A stretch of DNA of 64,000 nucleotides from Myxococcota bacterium (GTDB taxonomy: Bacteria > Myxococcota_A > Polyangia > HGW-17): contig JAHJMN010000002.1 of assembly GCA_018821305.1 (NCBI GenBank), forward strand, positions 62,001-126,000, given 5' to 3'. Below, piece by piece: positions 18,357 to 61,827 of this stretch (its first letter is position 1; every line of letters begins with the position of its first letter). The position numbers were made by a program, and so were the translations under genes. The notes below the pieces were generated by a model. The model saw only the letters and a program-made list of their open reading frames with translations. It ran no database searches and was not told the origin of the DNA.

Positions 18357-18777
18357 CAGTCACTTCCCCGAAATACAGTTTTTCAAATTTTTCGTCGATT
18401 TTTACTTAAGGACAGTAACCCCAGTGCTTACGCTTTCGCGTTTCGCTACTCAAGAGCGCTATAGACCGCTTGCGGAATAAAAGGATCGAAATGGGAAAAG
18501 TGAATGTTTTCATTCTGCCATCTGTAATTATGCTTTGATGTTGAATGGTTATGCCCTGTTTCTGATCCTGTTTACCTGATTTCCTGAGTTACTGTATAAA
18601 ATTTCAGAGAAACAGGAAATCAGTAGCAGGAACAGGAAAACAGGGGGCTCTTTCCTGAAGCATTTTATTTATAATAACTCACAATCGTATTACTCCGCAA
18701 GCGCTATAGTTGAATTTATTGTAGCAATCTGTTTGAATTTTTAATCCTTCGCAAAGCAAATTACGAGATACTAACTA
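18357..18777 (+). repeat. R1 repeat copy split by an inserted R2 element
   Basis: The left half (18357-18420) has the AAATACAGTTTTTCAAATTT block followed by AGGACAGTAACC. The right half (about 18710-18777) has TTGAATTTATTGTAG, TTTTTAATCCTTCGC and a TACTAACTA end. Between them lie an unaligned stretch (18421-18458) and the 251-bp R2 element. Together this is one R1 in plus orientation interrupted by R2. It begins 15 bases after the beta-helix gene stop. Confidence 0.75.
18459..18709 (+). repeat. R2 element, 251 bp, with terminal inverted repeats and a long internal hairpin
   Basis: The ends are CTATAGACCGCTTGCGGAAT (18459 onward) and CTCCGCAAGCGCTATAG (18693-18709), an imperfect inverted pair of about 20 bp. 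Inside, 18552-18645 forms a CCTG-rich imperfect hairpin: CCCTGTTTCTGATCCTGTTT on the left arm pairs with ACAGGAAAACAGGG on the right. A related but diverged right part occurs at 20757-20850. It has no coding capacity, so it is a MITE-like candidate. Confidence 0.65.
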
Positions 18778-20490: not shown

Positions 20491-20644
20491 TAATTAGTTA
20501 CTGTCCTGAAATACAGTTTTTCAAATTTTTCGACGATTTTTTGCTCAGGACAGTGAACGCAAGGTGTTGAATTTACTAGTAGTGGCCTGTTAGGATTTTT
20601 AATAAAATCCTTCGCGAAGCGAATTACAGGACACGAACTAATTA
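20491..20644 (+). repeat. R1 repeat, complete 154-bp copy
   Basis: This is a reference copy. The left end TAATTAGTTACTGTCCTG and the reverse complement of the right end (TAATTAGTTCGTGTCCTG) match at all but two bases. Hairpin 1: ACTGTCCTGA (20500-20509) with TCAGGACAGT (20545-20554). Hairpin 2: AGGATTTT (20592-20599), loop TAAT, AAAATCCT (20604-20611). Hairpin 3: TTCGC GAA GCGAA (20611-20623). An outer stem pairs GTGGCCTGT with ACAGGACAC. It starts one base after the TAA of the DUF2505-like gene. Confidence 0.88.
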
Positions 20645-20690: not shown

Positions 20691-20756
20691 TTGATCGGCT
20701 AGTAAATGTCTGAAGTAAATAATCTATAAATACAACATTATAAATTAATTACAGGT

Positions 20757-20850
20757 AAACAGGAAATTAGTACCAGTAACAGGAAAACAGGGGGCTCATT
20801 CCTGAAGCATTTCTTTAAACCGAGTTACAATCATATTACTCAGGAAGCAG
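20757..20850 (+). repeat. R2 element, partial copy
   Basis: AACAGGAAATTAGTACCAGT, AACAGGAAAACAGGGGGCTC and TTCCTGAAGCATTT align in order with 18610-18665 of the R2 reference, and ATTACTCAGGAAGCAGTATA resembles its right terminal repeat. The left arm is not recognisable, so this copy is truncated or decayed. It lies 70 bases upstream of the regulator gene. Confidence 0.6.
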
Positions 20851-25014: not shown

Positions 25015-25126
25015 TTATATTTTTTACCGATTTTTCGCTCAGGGTAGTGACCGCAAGGTGTTGAATTTATTTCAGTGCCCTTTTAGATTTTTTTTTGCGA
25101 AGCGAATTATAGGCCACGAACTATTT
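25015..25126 (+). repeat. R1 repeat, copy lacking its left end
   Basis: CCGATTTTTCGCTCAGGGTA, CCGCAAGGTGTTGAATTTAT, GCGAAGCGAATTATAGG and the CCACGAACTATTTTA end align with the intact copies. The terminal bases overlap the last codon and the TAG stop of the convergent DnaK-like gene (stop at 25121-25123 on the minus strand). Confidence 0.78.
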
Positions 25127-30077: not shown

Positions 30078-30456
30078 TTTACCCCTTAGATATCCCGAAA
30101 AGTTTCCGGAATAAACTTTTTACTTTGCATTAAAAATACTCTTTTCAGTTTTTTTTTCAAGAGGGCAATTTATTTTTTTTATGAAAACTTAATCTAAAGC
30201 AAATAATATTGAATTAATTATCTTTTATCTGAAAAATAAAATAAAATATTTATTATATTGCAAATACTTACCTTGTTGATTTACTTAGTTACTGTCCTGA
30301 AATACGGTTCTTTCTTTTTTTCGAATGCTTTTCGCTTCAGGACAAAAACACACTTTGTCACTGTGCAGAATAAGGGTTTTTATTTTCGACCCATTTCTGC
30401 TCCAGAACTTTCACTAATTGGTAGAGGTTTAATGCTTTTACTTATGGAGTTAATTT
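30078..30456. other. Intergenic region between glycerate kinase and M16 protease genes
   Basis: This is a 379-base, very AT-rich divergent region. It holds promoters for both genes and an R1 left half at 30281-30345. The bases 30160-30260 are almost purely A/T. No tRNA, riboswitch or short gene was recognised; an 85-codon frame starting at 30258 overlaps the protease start in another frame and lacks support. Confidence 0.5.
30281..30345 (+). repeat. R1 repeat, left half only
   Basis: TACTTAGTTACTGTCCTGAA and AATACGG match the left terminal repeat, and TTCGCTTCAGGAC matches the hairpin 1 right arm. The whole right half is missing, so only hairpin 1 (about 9 bp) remains. It lies in plus orientation about 110 bases upstream of the protease start. 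Confidence 0.7.
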
Positions 30457-40738: not shown

Positions 40739-41092
40739 TAATTCATATCTCTTTATAATATATTATTTTTAAACCATACTTTTTAGAAAAAAATACAGTA
40801 TCCGCAATGTTTTGAATTTATTGTAGTGCCCTTTTAGAAATTTTAATAAATTTCTTTGTAAAGCGAATTTCAAACACTACTTACTATCTCACTAAGAACT
40901 TTTCAAATCAACAATTGATCCTTTTCAATTTCATTTTTTGTACTTGCGCCTGATATTCCAAAAAGGAAATAAACATAAATCAAATACACCTTGAATTATT
41001 TAGTAAAAGAGGTAAAAAGAACATGGATTCTTATATAGAGATTTTGCTTTGCTCTTTTTAGAAATTTAATAGCAAAAAACAAGGAGAACTAA
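40739..41092. other. Divergent intergenic region upstream of the giant helicase and the Cys-repeat lipoprotein
   Basis: This 354-base region must provide promoters for both genes and contains an R1 right half at 40796-40888. AAGGAG lies seven bases before the lipoprotein ATG (41093). No RNA gene was recognised. Confidence 0.5.
40796..40888 (+). repeat. R1 repeat, right half only
   Basis: CCGCAATGTTTTGAATTTAT, then GTAGTGCCCTTTTAG, then AGAAATTT-TAAT-AAATTTCT (hairpin 2 in its AT-rich form) and AAAGCGAATTTCAAACACTA align with the intact copies. The left half is absent or unrecognisable. Confidence 0.7.
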
Positions 41093-43666
41093 ATGAAAAA
41101 ACTTGCAATAATTTTAAGTATGTTAGCAATTACATCATTGTCATCTTGTGATGATGATCCATCCAGTGGCACTTGCTCTGATGGTGACACTCAGGAAGGC
41201 ACAACCGTCTGCGGTTTGAACGACGAAGGTGTACTCATTCAAAATTGTGTAGATGATACCTGGGTTGATTCAACCTCCTGCACTGGTACAGATGTGTGCG
41301 TAAACGAGGCAACGCAGATTGGTACAACGGTTTGTGGTGATAACAGTGAAGGATTCTTTATGCAAAATTGTACAAATGGTCAGTGGATTGACGACACTAC
41401 CGATTGTCATATTGAACCAGCCTGCACAAATGGTGACACCAGAAACGGAACAACCGTTTGCGGTCTCAATAATGAAGGTTTTGTCATCGAAGAGTGTCAG
41501 GAAGGTGAATGGACTGAAACAACAGATTGTTCAGGAACGGATGTATGTGTCAACTTAGCTGAAAGAAATTCCGATACTCCCTGCGATCCCAACGGCGTGT
41601 TTATAGAAAGATGTGTAAACGGCGCATGGGAATTAACTGATGAGTGCAATTCAACACCGGAATGTACAACTGGAGAAAATCAACCTGGAACATCAGCTTG
41701 TGGTTTAAACGGCAGAGGTCTTTATGATCAGGAATGCATAAACGGTTTCTGGCAGGATACAGAAAACTGCGTTGATCCAGACGAGTGTATTGATAATGCC
41801 TCTCAGACTTTGAATAATGCTTGCGGCTTTAACAATCATGGTTCACTTGAACAAAACTGCGTTTTGGGCGCTTGGGTTGATGGTACCTGTACTGAAACCG
41901 ACGACTGTCAAGATGGTACTTCTCAGACTTTGACTAACGCTTGTGGCTTTAATAACAATGGCTCACTTGAACAAAACTGCGTTTCGGGCGCTTGGGTTGA
42001 CGGTACCTGTACTGAAACCGATGACTGTCAAGATGGTACTTCTCAGACTTTAAATAATGCTTGCGGCTTTAACAATCATGGTTCACTTGAACAAAACTGC
42101 GTTTCAGGCGCCTGGGTTGACGGTACCTGTACTGAAACCGACGACTGTGAAAATGGTACTTCTCAGACTTTGAATAATGCTTGCGGCTTTAACAACAATG
42201 GCTCACTTGAACAAAACTGCGTTTCGGGCGCTTGGGTTGATGGTACCTGTACTGAAACCGACGACTGTGAAAATAGTACAACGCAAACCGGGACAACACC
42301 TTGTGGATATAATAATTCAGGAAGGATTGAACAACTCTGCTCTGACGGAGCTTGGGTTGATACGGCAAATTGCATTAATGAAGGTTTTATTTTCCTGAAC
42401 GAAGTAGTCACCGGAGCTACCGGCTGGGTTGAACTTCACAATGGAAATTCATCTGAAGCGGATATTTCTGGTTGGATTATTAATGTAGGAGGTACTGATC
42501 ACACCATTCCAGCATCTACAACAATTCCAGCAAATGGTTATTATGTATTTGAGAACATTAATATAAACCCCGACAACGATATGGTTACTCTTTATGTTGG
42601 AACCACTGAGATCGACAGCACTGACTGGACAACGAACCAACCAATATGGGGACGATTCCCCAATGGCACTGGAAATTTCCAGACACTTTATATAAATACT
42701 ATGGCTGCTGAGAACACTGATTTACAACCTGTCAGCATTGGTTGGTGTGGAAATATTTATCCTGTTGCAATAAATGAAACTGTAGGTTATTCCACAGATA
42801 TTTATGGCAAACTTTATATTTCTGGTTATACAGACACATATTCTGATGCTATTTCTCAGGTCCGATCACGAATGTGTTGGACAGATGGAACAAACAGCGA
42901 ATGTGAAAATGCTTCCTTTGCTGGAACCGAACCTGGAGTACCAAATAATGATCAGTATATGGTAAACTTTACATTTGAAAATGTTGGAACTTATACTTAT
43001 TGGTATGAATTCTCTGGTGATATGGGCAATACATGGACTTCATGTATTGATTTCGGTGCTACGGGAGGCGGAGTCGCAAATATAACAAACGGCTCTGTTA
43101 CTTGGGAAAGCAAGTTATATCTCTGGGAAGTTGATTCTGATACCCCAGGAACAGATGTTGCTGAATTTATCGAACTCTGGAACAATACTGGTTCAACCAT
43201 TGATTTTTCAACAGAAAGTTATTTTCTTATTTTAATTAATGGCAGTAATGATCTGACATACGCTACAATTCAACTTTCAGGTACTTTAAATGATGGTGAT
43301 ATTTTCACGATTGGGTCACCATCAATGACAGGGATTAATCAATCTTTTTCACTTGCTTCTAATTTTCTTCAAAATGGTCAGGATGGCGTTATTCTTATAA
43401 GATGTGATGGTTGTACTGCTGCAGAAATACCCATCAATACAGTTATCCCTGCGACAACAACTTTTTCAGTAGGTTCAAATACAGCAACAAAAGTTGATGG
43501 TATTGCTTACGATACTGCTGATGCTGACGATGCTAACTTGATGTCAATATGCGGTGTGACAACCCAGTGGAATGAGTCTGAAAACGCAACACCTGAAACA
43601 GATTCTCTACATAGAACTTCTCCCGATACCTGGTCAACAAGCCCGTCTACTCCTACAGTTAAGTAA
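41093..43666 (+). CDS. Surface lipoprotein with ten Cys-rich repeats and lamin-tail-like domains
   Basis: This 857-residue lipoprotein starts MKKLAIILSMLAITSLSSCD, lipobox cysteine at residue 19. Residues about 27-430 are ten tandem units of about 40 residues, each with four cysteines in the pattern C-x(12-13)-C-x(12-14)-C-x(8-10)-C (for example NACGFNNHGSLEQNC), so they probably fold as small disulfide modules. Residues about 435-500 (FLNEVVTGATGWVELHNG) and 670-745 (VAEFIELWNNTG) resemble lamin-tail beta-sandwiches. The central part is beta-rich and unrecognised. Units 6-9 are almost identical in DNA. The start has AAGGAG upstream. It is probably cell-surface adhesive or structural; the function is unknown. 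Confidence 0.83.
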   Translation: MKKLAIILSMLAITSLSSCDDDPSSGTCSDGDTQEGTTVCGLNDEGVLIQNCVDDTWVDSTSCTGTDVCVNEATQIGTTVCGDNSEGFFMQNCTNGQWIDDTTDCHIEPACTNGDTRNGTTVCGLNNEGFVIEECQEGEWTETTDCSGTDVCVNLAERNSDTPCDPNGVFIERCVNGAWELTDECNSTPECTTGENQPGTSACGLNGRGLYDQECINGFWQDTENCVDPDECIDNASQTLNNACGFNNHGSLEQNCVLGAWVDGTCTETDDCQDGTSQTLTNACGFNNNGSLEQNCVSGAWVDGTCTETDDCQDGTSQTLNNACGFNNHGSLEQNCVSGAWVDGTCTETDDCENGTSQTLNNACGFNNNGSLEQNCVSGAWVDGTCTETDDCENSTTQTGTTPCGYNNSGRIEQLCSDGAWVDTANCINEGFIFLNEVVTGATGWVELHNGNSSEADISGWIINVGGTDHTIPASTTIPANGYYVFENININPDNDMVTLYVGTTEIDSTDWTTNQPIWGRFPNGTGNFQTLYINTMAAENTDLQPVSIGWCGNIYPVAINETVGYSTDIYGKLYISGYTDTYSDAISQVRSRMCWTDGTNSECENASFAGTEPGVPNNDQYMVNFTFENVGTYTYWYEFSGDMGNTWTSCIDFGATGGGVANITNGSVTWESKLYLWEVDSDTPGTDVAEFIELWNNTGSTIDFSTESYFLILINGSNDLTYATIQLSGTLNDGDIFTIGSPSMTGINQSFSLASNFLQNGQDGVILIRCDGCTAAEIPINTVIPATTTFSVGSNTATKVDGIAYDTADADDANLMSICGVTTQWNESENATPETDSLHRTSPDTWSTSPSTPTVK
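41786..42265 (+). repeat. Tandem repeat, four near-identical 120-bp units inside the lipoprotein gene
   Basis: TCTCAGACTT recurs at 41801, 41921, 42041 and 42161, exactly 120 bases apart, and the flanking sequence differs by only a few bases per unit. Each unit encodes 40 residues with four cysteines. The other six protein repeats are diverged, so these four are recent duplications. Confidence 0.93.
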
Positions 43667-45214: not shown

Positions 45215-45580
45215 ATGGGATACAGATATAAACTTGGAAGATCATATAGTTGTAGTCTTCAGATACTTGATGAATCCGTATCTTTAGAGCACGCTATTTT
45301 TATTGATGCCGGCGAAAATTTTAAAATTGAGGATATTTCACATAATGGAACTTATATTGAACGAAGAGGTGCGAAAAGGCGCCTTCAGAGGCATTTCATT
45401 GAGGAACTGAAACCCGATGATGTACTTTATTTCGGTTTCAACGAAGAGCCTTTTTATGTAACAGATATAATTAATGAAATTAAAATATTAAAATTACCGG
45501 TGGGAAGTCAGAAAGTTCGTTGTCCAATTCATGGAATAATCCATCTTGAAGGTAACGGATGTCCTATGTGTCCTCAATAG
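45215..45580 (+). CDS. Stand-alone FHA-domain protein with C-terminal zinc knuckle
   Basis: This 121-residue protein has an FHA domain at about 1-90 with the phospho-threonine pocket residues: GRSYSC (Arg9), SLEHA (His26) and SHNGTYI (Asn44). The C-terminal 20 residues hold CPIH...CPMC (Cys103, His106, Cys116, Cys119), a small treble-clef or zinc-knuckle type site. It should bind a phosphorylated partner, possibly a substrate of the kinase at 33038. AGGTGA lies five bases before the ATG. The stop codon (TAG, 45578-45580) lies inside the left end of an R1 copy. Confidence 0.84.
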   Translation: MGYRYKLGRSYSCSLQILDESVSLEHAIFIDAGENFKIEDISHNGTYIERRGAKRRLQRHFIEELKPDDVLYFGFNEEPFYVTDIINEIKILKLPVGSQKVRCPIHGIIHLEGNGCPMCPQ

Positions 45581-45753
45581 TTGATGTCAAGAAATACAGG
45601 TTTTTCATGTTTTTAACAAAGAACATTAAGAATGAAAACCTGAACTTATCGTAGCGTTCTGAATAACATGTTTTTTTATACATGCTCAGTTTTAATAAAA
45701 ATTGAACTTCAGTAACGCAATTTTGAAGCGGATTACTAGAGATGAACTCTATA
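45576..45753 (+). repeat. R1 repeat, diverged full-length copy
   Basis: ATAGTTGATGTCAAGAAATA with CAGGTTTTTCATG matches the left end, and TTTTAATAAAAATTGAAC and GAAGCGGATTACTAGAGATG match the right part. It is more diverged than the copies at 20491 and 61674. It separates the FHA gene from the ExbB-like gene in an otherwise tightly packed operon. Confidence 0.55.
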
Positions 45754-57933: not shown

Positions 57934-59346
57934 CTACATGCAGATTCCATAAGTATCCCAACCCATACAACTTCCACCGTTCGAGCAATTAGGAGCATCA
58001 AGATAACAAGCCTGATAACAAACGGGTTCCCCAAAACCTGTTGACATACACACATTTCCAGGCTGACAATCCGTAGAAGAACCACATGGGCTACCTGTAG
58101 GCAGATTTCCTGCTGGTGCATAACAATAGGGTTCACCTATAGACATATTGGAAACATCTACATAACAATGCTGATTCGGCATAGGACATCCTTCGTCAAA
58201 TATTGGATCGCAAAGTATCTCGCCACATTCTGGCGTCCCCATACAGTCTTCGTCTTCGCAGTCTATAAGACCATCGTTATCATTATCATAACCATCACCA
58301 CAATCCATTTCGTAGTCATTATTGCAATACCAATAGCAATCATCGATATCTTCGCAATCTATAAGACCGTCATTGTCATCATCCACGCCATTTGAACAGT
58401 CATACTCATAATCACTGTTACAATATTCATAACAATCCATATCATCACAGTCTACGAGCCCATCACCGTCATCATCTAAGCCATTCCAACAGTCTTCTCT
58501 GTTTACCTGGCAGGCAGGATGCTGGAGACATTCCTGATCAGTGCAGTCAATATAGCCGTCACCATCGTTATCAAGGCCATCATCGCAGATTTCCTGATTT
58601 TCAAGGCAGTATTCGTTTAAACGACAATCAACATCAGTACAGTCAACATAACCGTCACCGTCATTATCTATGCCGTCATCGCAAATTTCCGGGATTATGT
58701 TACATCCTGAAATACCAAAACATTCGGAATCAGTGCAGTCAATATAGCCATCGCCATCATTATCAAGACCGTCATCGCAGATTTCGCCCTCTATCTGGCA
58801 CTCTGGTAGATCCGCACAGGCAGGATCTTTACAATCAGTTAATCCATTGGCGTCATTATCAATGCCATCTCCGCAAATTTCTTCTTCAGTCGTGTTACAA
58901 ACTTGATGTCTCTGGCAATCCTGATCGGCACAATCAATAAATCCATCACCGTCGTTATCTTCACCATCGTCACAGACTTCAAGATATTCGCATTCGGAAC
59001 TACAGTCATTATCGTTACAATCAACAAAACCGTCCCCATCGTTATCAAGACCGTCATCGCAGATTTCATCTTCAATTTGACATGTTGCACTATTCATACA
59101 GTCCTGATCGGCACAATCAATATATCCATCGCCGTCATTATCTTCACCATCATTACAGATTTCCCCATTGCAAGCCGGTTTATCCATACAGTCCTGATCG
59201 GCACAGTCAATAAATCCATCGTTGTCGTTATCAAGACCGTCATCACAGGCACTTTCAACATATGGATTTGTCGTAGAGTCATCATCACAGGCTGCAAGGG
59301 ATGTGGCTGCCGTTAAGGCACAGATATAAATAAGTTTTTTCAGCAT
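57934..59346 (-). CDS. MopE-like calcium-repeat lipoprotein
   Basis: This 470-residue lipoprotein has the signal MLKKLIYICALTAATSLAAC (cysteine 20), preceded by GGAGGT before the ATG. Residues about 33-390 hold eleven copies of a MopE/EF-like calcium-loop repeat with the consensus CDDGxDNDGDGYIDCxDxDC. Each has two to four cysteines and Asp-rich DxDxDG loops. The C-terminal 80 residues are a Cys-rich domain (GSPCGSSTDCQPGNVC, GGSCMGWDTYGICM). It is likely a surface-exposed protein stabilised by Ca2+ and disulfides. It sits alone, convergent with lepA. The function is unknown; adhesion or copper/calcium binding is speculative. Confidence 0.88.
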   Translation of the reverse strand: MLKKLIYICALTAATSLAACDDDSTTNPYVESACDDGLDNDNDGFIDCADQDCMDKPACNGEICNDGEDNDGDGYIDCADQDCMNSATCQIEDEICDDGLDNDGDGFVDCNDNDCSSECEYLEVCDDGEDNDGDGFIDCADQDCQRHQVCNTTEEEICGDGIDNDANGLTDCKDPACADLPECQIEGEICDDGLDNDGDGYIDCTDSECFGISGCNIIPEICDDGIDNDGDGYVDCTDVDCRLNEYCLENQEICDDGLDNDGDGYIDCTDQECLQHPACQVNREDCWNGLDDDGDGLVDCDDMDCYEYCNSDYEYDCSNGVDDDNDGLIDCEDIDDCYWYCNNDYEMDCGDGYDNDNDGLIDCEDEDCMGTPECGEILCDPIFDEGCPMPNQHCYVDVSNMSIGEPYCYAPAGNLPTGSPCGSSTDCQPGNVCMSTGFGEPVCYQACYLDAPNCSNGGSCMGWDTYGICM

Positions 59347-59670
59347 TTGTATTTACCTCCGTGCTGTAAGCGTACCTTTATTTTTCCCTTTTTCAATTGG
59401 AAAAATGAGGCTTTTTGCAGAAATCGTTAATATGGATAACAATAAGTAGTTAGTCGCTGTCCTGAAATAACATATTATCTAGTTTTCGCCTGATTTTTGA
59501 TCTGGACACGGACTGCAAGTTGTTGAATTTATTATAGTGGCCTGTCAGAGTTTTTAATAAAATCCTTCGCGAAGCGAATTTCAGGACACGAATTGGATAG
59601 TTATTGGATTTTTTGCCTCTTGTGCAACGCAAAAGGCTTTTGATGTGTCTTCTACAGAAAGGTTTTTTCC
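59347..59670. other. Divergent intergenic region upstream of glmS
   Basis: This 324-base region contains a complete-length R1 copy at 59444-59598. The 72 bases between that copy and the glmS ATG contain no glmS-ribozyme-like signal that I can recognise. AGGTTT-type bases lie before the ATG but no strong ribosome-binding site. Confidence 0.5.
59444..59598 (+). repeat. R1 repeat, full-length copy
   Basis: AAGTAGTTAGTCGCTGTCCT opens the copy, GGACACGGACTGCAAGTTGT and TTGAATTTATTATAGTGGCC follow, and hairpins TTTTTAATAAAATCC and TTCGCGAAGCGAA lead into TTTCAGGACACGAAT. It lies 72 bases upstream of glmS. Confidence 0.85.
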
Positions 59671-61489: not shown

Positions 61490-61827
61490 TTTTCCTGAAA
61501 TTATTCGTGAAGCGAATTTGCGGAACGAAATATATAGTTAGCGTCCTGTAATACCGAATTTTCAAGTTGTACCATTTTTTTTTGTTCAGGACATTAACCC
61601 AAAGATACTGAAAATATTATTTGTTGCCTGATATTTTTTTTACCCTTCGCGAAGCGAATAAAAGGGCACGAAATAATTAGTTACTGTCCTGTAATACCGG
61701 AAATCAAATTTTTCGCCGATTTTTTGCTCAGGACAGTAACCGCAAGGTGTTGAATTTACTAGTAGTGGCCTGTTAGAAATTTTAATAAATTTCTTCGCGA
61801 AGCGAATTACAGGACACGAACTAATTA
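61490..61827 (+). repeat. R1 array: one partial and two full copies head to tail
   Basis: 61490-61533 is a right-end fragment (CCTGAAATTATTCGTGAAGC). 61533-61676 is a diverged full copy. 61674-61827 is an intact 154-bp copy with left end TAATTAGTTACTGTCCTG and right end ACAGGACACGAACTAATTA. Neighbouring copies share the TAATTA junction. All are in plus orientation. The last base lies 17 bases before the TTG start of the ABC exporter gene. Confidence 0.88.

Follow-up and report, generated by a model that had tools for sequence, protein, structure and literature searches.

The bcr1 repeat of the Bacillus cereus group is a structured intergenic sequence of ~155 bp with mobile-element features, and in these respects it resembles R1, the repeat described here; it differs from R1 in sequence, in host and in its 5-bp target duplication. 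A further comparison is with the prokaryotic MITEs in general, including type II elements and the Correia, Chunjie and QMITE elements (reviewed in PMC10969869). R1 is short (below ~500 bp), has terminal inverted repeats and target duplications, occurs as dispersed, mainly intergenic copies and shares its ends with an insertion sequence (IS) of the same genome. On the strength of the terminal repeats, the 6-bp duplications, the copy number and the IS with matching ends, we interpret R1 as a 142-bp MITE which is moved in trans by an ISNCY_1-like DDE transposase and inserts at TANNTA (probability about 0.93).

R1 and related elements in the window

The window, by which we mean the whole 64-kb stretch of DNA analysed, contains two intact copies of R1. 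Both were found on rereading the sequence, with the ends and the positions (20491 and 61674) given in the original prediction. The length of 154 bp assigned to them there agrees with these coordinates, but the element proper is 142 bp and the TAATTA at either border belongs to a target-site duplication. The features of the two intact copies are as follows.

20491..20496, no strand: left target-site duplication, TAATTA
20497..20638, + strand: intact copy of R1, the probable MITE, 142 bp, GTTACTGTCCTG...CAGGACACGAAC, with hairpin-2 form AGGATTTT/AAAATCCT
20497..20509, + strand: left terminal repeat, also the 5' arm of hairpin 1; the right end (IRR) of the IS is matched exactly by the first 17 bp of R1
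20592..20611, + strand: hairpin 2, AGGATTTT-TAAT-AAAATCCT
20627..20638, - strand: right terminal repeat, GTTCGTGTCCTG; 12 bp equal the left end (IRL) of the IS
20639..20644, no strand: right target-site duplication, TAATTA
61674..61679, no strand: target-site duplication TAATTA, common to the copy at 61680-61821 and an older tandem copy at its left
61680..61821, + strand: intact copy of R1, the probable MITE, with hairpin-2 form AGAAATTT/AAATTTCT
61775-61794: hairpin 2, second form, AGAAATTT-TAAT-AAATTTCT
61822..61827, no strand: right target-site duplication, TAATTA

Hairpin 1, the outer stem with its one mismatch and the TTCGC-GAA-GCGAA hairpin are all present in both copies, as had been described. 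The two hairpin-2 base pairs said to be changed on both sides between 20592-20611 and 61775-61794 (G-C to A-T and T-A to A-T) were read again and are correct, as is the partial copy at 40796 with the second hairpin-2 form. The terminal inverted repeats GTTACTGTCCTG and GTTCGTGTCCTG are identical at 10 of 12 positions, and the hairpins of the interior combine short AT-rich palindromes with terminal-repeat copies in inverted orientation. The z-scores of the predicted fold lie between about -4.1 and -5.0 on either strand. No promoter-like sites were found inside the R1 elements, and terminator-like sites were limited to one weak site per copy.

The R1 family extends well beyond these three copies, and the window also holds remnants and a sister subfamily, R2:

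18359..18426, + strand: remnant of the left half of R1
25019..25122, + strand: degenerate R1 copy without the left end
30287..30336, + strand: isolated left-end module
40795..40872, + strand: R1 fragment (model positions 55-133) with hairpin AGAAATTT/AAATTTCT
45579..45713, + strand: partial element of the R2 sister subfamily, with the same ends and another interior (R2 model, E 7.9e-22)
59452..59592, + strand: diverged R1 copy (E 1.3e-29)
61536..61672, + strand: degenerate R1 copy in tandem with 61680-61821 (nhmmer, E 8e-16)

Several other repeats were noted in the same genome. A dispersed repeat, AACAGGAAATCAGTA.CAGGAACAGGAAAACAGGGGGCTC, lies near R1-type elements (18600-18665 and 20747-20812, 89% identical). 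The GC-rich palindrome CTTACGCTTCCGCGCTTCGCTTCGCGAGAGCGCTATAG is inserted in the R1 copies L049 and L063, and a similar one lies beside the left-half remnant at 18425-18450, which points to a second family of small palindromes. The minus-strand open reading frame (ORF) at 57934-59346 has some 11 repeats that are rich in Asp and look like thrombospondin type 3 repeats, and an 857-residue ORF (41093-43666) includes tandem 120-bp repeats at 41773-42372.

Abundance and target sites

The original prediction had proposed a search for R1 in the complete genome and in relatives. This search gave 51 matches in the genome itself (5.22 Mb in 216 contigs), the best 40 of which are ~89-100% identical, and none in 77 other genomes, one of them from the same genus; viral contigs were also searched for relatives and gave none. 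The terminal motif AGTTNNTGTCCTGNAAT occurs in 589 exact copies genome-wide compared with two for the reversed control, from which we infer about 290 elements, if most of them keep two ends.

A set of 97 two-ended elements, 120-260 bp long and with few end mismatches, was taken from 2.17 Mb of the genome. They sort into R1 (about 142-143 bp), R2 (about 153-155 bp, with the same ends and a different interior), R1/R2 hybrids and R1 copies with extra small insertions; tandem copies in the family have one TANNTA in common. A sequence of ~65 bp, TCTCACTGTTTTC...GTTTTAGAC, is inserted in the R1 copies L100, L114, L063, L104, L044 and L130 (208-247 bp), mostly at one identical point in hairpin 1 and with GAC at either flank. 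It may be a further small mobile palindrome, or it may mark an old subfamily.

Target duplication was assessed by comparing the runs of bases directly outside GTT...AAC. Within the 2.17 Mb, an exact 6-bp duplication was present in 42 of 96 two-ended elements, while shuffling gave a mean of 6.1 and a maximum of 14. When the TAATTA cases were removed the count was 27 of 74 compared with 3.2 on shuffling. The consensus of the duplicated target is TANNTA, and there are two 7-bp cases, TATTATA and TAAAATA. The duplication is exact in only 44% of the copies; age and recombination would explain the remainder. A search for empty sites within other repeats returned many cross-matches among the repeats themselves.

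The elements lie entirely outside long ORFs in 84 of 97 cases, whereas 84% of random positions fall within such frames. At 18 of the 97 elements a neighbouring ORF ends on a stop codon that lies in the duplicated target or is created by it: either the first three bases of the target (TAA, TAG or TGA) or TA joined to the first G of the element. Since the target can contain TAA or TAG, and TANNTA followed by the G of the element gives TAG, the R1 family may be able to insert at gene ends with little harm.

The partner insertion sequence

There is a single DDE_Tnp_1 match in the genome, a transposase on contig C216, and about 170 bp beyond its gene CAGGACAGTAAC is followed by TATTTA. Six contig ends consist of the left part of the same IS, each starting with GTTCGTGTCCTGAAATTAAG directly after TAACTA or TATTTA, and right ends of the IS were found on other contigs. 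The six ends with the same left part indicate that the IS is multi-copy and has collapsed in the assembly. Its length is 1679 bp when the body is extended to the left end by way of contig-edge copies that overlap it identically; no complete copy with both junctions within one contig was found in the genome. Because the copies collapse at contig edges, an attempt to reach the transposase by way of ORFs present in several copies found no such ORFs. Within the 2.17 Mb there was also no clear candidate for a long element with an R1-type end on either side. At some borders of the IS (L179, L180 and L181) there are (AACT)n runs, which probably arose by slippage where the terminal AAC meets the target TAACTA. 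At the edge of contig C172 (L184), the TAACTA of an IS copy lies on the stop codon of a gene that, by eye, looks like a flagellar rod gene (flgG-like), so that the end of the reading frame is kept.

The transposase has residues Asp150, Asp355 and Glu407 in DDE-like motifs and matches PF01609 with E 5.6e-13. Its best family is NCBIfam NF033593, ISNCY_1 (E 1.2e-87), and as the score of 294 bits is below the curated cut-off of 325 bits, we describe the IS as ISNCY_1-like (ISRm17-like) and not as a strict member. Relatives of the transposase, some of them annotated ISNCY or ISRm17, are 27-31% identical, can be aligned over nearly the whole length and are found on plasmids of Sinorhizobium, Microvirga and Marinobacter; the three that were scanned all exceed the ISNCY_1 cut-off. 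In five of seven elements examined, the IS of the relatives duplicates TAGCTA, TAGGCTA, TAGACTA or TAGTCTA beside ends of the form GTGCCC(A/G)TCCA, and in the other two no exact duplication was seen at the borders. The hosts of the duplicating elements are S. meliloti, S. medicae, S. fredii and Marinobacter. As the borders of these elements carry the same duplication pattern, the TA-N2-3-TA target is a property of the transposase group which was found independently of R1, and it gives a little-described group of insertion sequences a common target rule.

The two ends of the IS differ at positions 4-5, which are CG on the left and AC on the right. The left end of R1 is the same as the IRR over 17 bp and matches the IRL for only 3; its right end is the same as the IRL over 12 bp and matches the IRR for only 3. 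The right (CG) end of R2 equals the IRL over 17 bp. The likeness of R1 to the IS is confined to the ends, so that R1 is a type II MITE as PMC10969869 uses the term. Inside R1 the terminal repeat recurs in inverted orientation, a feature absent from the ends of the IS. We propose that the ISNCY_1-type (ISRm17-like) DDE transposase of the ~1.68-kb IS would recognize the GTTNNTGTCCTG ends and that it most likely moves R1 in trans. R1 would enter TANNTA, which is duplicated upon insertion; transposition, whether cut-and-paste or copy-and-paste, would have multiplied the copies, and a small number of hairpin alleles would have been reshuffled between them. What appeared to be an unknown structured RNA thus becomes a well supported pair of MITE and IS.

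Hairpin covariation, alternative readings and known systems

Over 34 pairs in 71 full-length copies of R1, 94.8% of the cells are paired. Eight pairs are changed on both sides, giving 73 such cells compared with 21 in shuffles (0 of 500) and at most 19 when the structure was slid along the element. The covariation claimed for this structured interspersed repeat therefore exceeds both controls, and it extends to hairpin 1 (including T-A to C-G and G-C to A-T) and to the outer stem (including T-A to G-C and T-A to A-T). Hairpin 2 has three main forms, present in 37, 13 and 11 of the 71 copies. On a poorly resolved tree of the remaining element these forms require 19 changes compared with 22.1 for random labels. 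The form is strongly associated with the variant of the outer stem (p = 4e-12) and has no detectable link to the left half of R1 (p = 0.09). Since the three main forms are scattered over the tree, the covarying cells are not independent; a few hairpin alleles, shuffled by recombination, probably account for most of the doubly changed cells. This pattern is most simply read as the result of modular recombination or gene conversion among copies with a handful of alleles. G-T cells are in modest excess over A-C cells (15 and 7, respectively, of 2258), and so there is no strong sign of a selected RNA strand. The covariation is statistically real, but neither an RNA nor a function follows from it. 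The original conclusion that the folded form matters accordingly lacks support, given few alleles scattered almost at random and a modest G-T excess, although a functional role for the fold is possible. Strong pairwise covariation that arises in a dispersed repeat from a few scattered alleles calls for caution in covariation-based RNA discovery.

Two accounts of the hairpins can be added to the MITE interpretation. Paired changes can result from template switching when DNA is replicated (PMC8794818). Correction of quasi-palindromes in this way, combined with recombination between copies, would leave hairpins with no function when folded. We give this account an even chance: every main hairpin-2 allele is perfectly paired, the alleles are scattered over the tree, the four unpaired cells at pair 102/117 are two A-C, one A-A and one G-G with no G-T intermediate, and such switching has been documented in other stems (PMC8794818). 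It sits less easily with hairpin 1 and the outer stem, which contain the transposase-end motif and may be under selection for binding. Alternatively the fold itself may have been selected, as hairpin or cruciform DNA in transposition or as a transcribed hairpin that stabilizes or terminates mRNA, in which case the covariation would be true compensatory evolution. The excess of doubly changed cells over both controls, the high proportion of paired cells, the involvement of three stems and the low fold z-scores on both strands are consistent with selection. Set against this are the small number of independent events, the scatter of the three main alleles (most simply through recombination), the lack of a strong excess of G-T over A-C, the single weak terminator-like site and absence of promoter-like sites within the elements, and the ability of template switching to yield double changes without selection. 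We consider a selected fold a tentative suggestion, less probable than not. A narrower form of it, in which the two-hairpin ends are selected because the transposase or host factors recognize them when folded (cruciform or single-stranded), seems improbable to us; if it were true, R1 would be a folded-DNA-dependent DDE MITE with an advantage over its own IS, which would account for the high copy number.

The remaining alternatives would replace the MITE interpretation. If R1 were a structured RNA (an sRNA, riboswitch or ribozyme) that had spread in another way, the stable predicted fold and the covariation would be accounted for, but an Rfam scan of the window gave no match at the gathering score, and no RNA is needed to explain the distribution, given the duplications, the tandem copies, the IS with matching ends and the interchangeable interiors (R2); we regard this reading as very unlikely. 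It is more doubtful still that R1 is of the REP/BIME type and owes its movement to a RAYT (Y1 HUH) transposase. The genome has three Y1_Tnp genes and R1 holds paired hairpins, but R1 ends do not border the Y1 genes, and the ends of R1 match those of a DDE IS. HUH transposition is not known to make the terminal inverted repeats and 6-bp duplications seen in R1. With the Y1 genes unlinked and the target duplications clear, we rejected RAYT as the mover. As a separate observation, one IS200-like Y1 transposase gene (L173, contig C8) lies beside a CRISPR-like array of regularly spaced repeats.

We return to R1 as a MITE with a partner IS. R1 shares with REP/BIME sequences and their RAYTs a high copy number of intergenic palindromes and tandem clusters, and differs from them in its terminal inverted repeats, 6-bp target duplications and DDE partner. 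The partner IS is like the ISRm17 type of ISNCY (NF033593) in its DDE transposase, in ends that begin with GT and in the TA-N2-3-TA duplication. It is set apart by its protein identity of 27-31%, by a score below the NCBIfam cut-off and by its terminal sequence, which is GTT(CG/AC)TGTCCTGAAAT compared with GTGCCC(A/G)TCCA in the ISRm17 type. The original prediction knew of no named element with this layout; this agrees with the Rfam result, but the kind of element is a known one, a MITE with an IS partner in the genome. Like the prokaryotic MITEs, R1 is below 500 bp, AT-rich and intergenic, has terminal inverted repeats, can form stem-loops, outnumbers its IS and resembles it at the ends alone, and its target duplications fade with age. 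It is distinguished from the known MITEs by its ends, its 6-bp TANNTA target, its ISNCY_1-like partner and an interior built from a pair of hairpins, both of which are closed by a terminal-repeat copy in inverted orientation.
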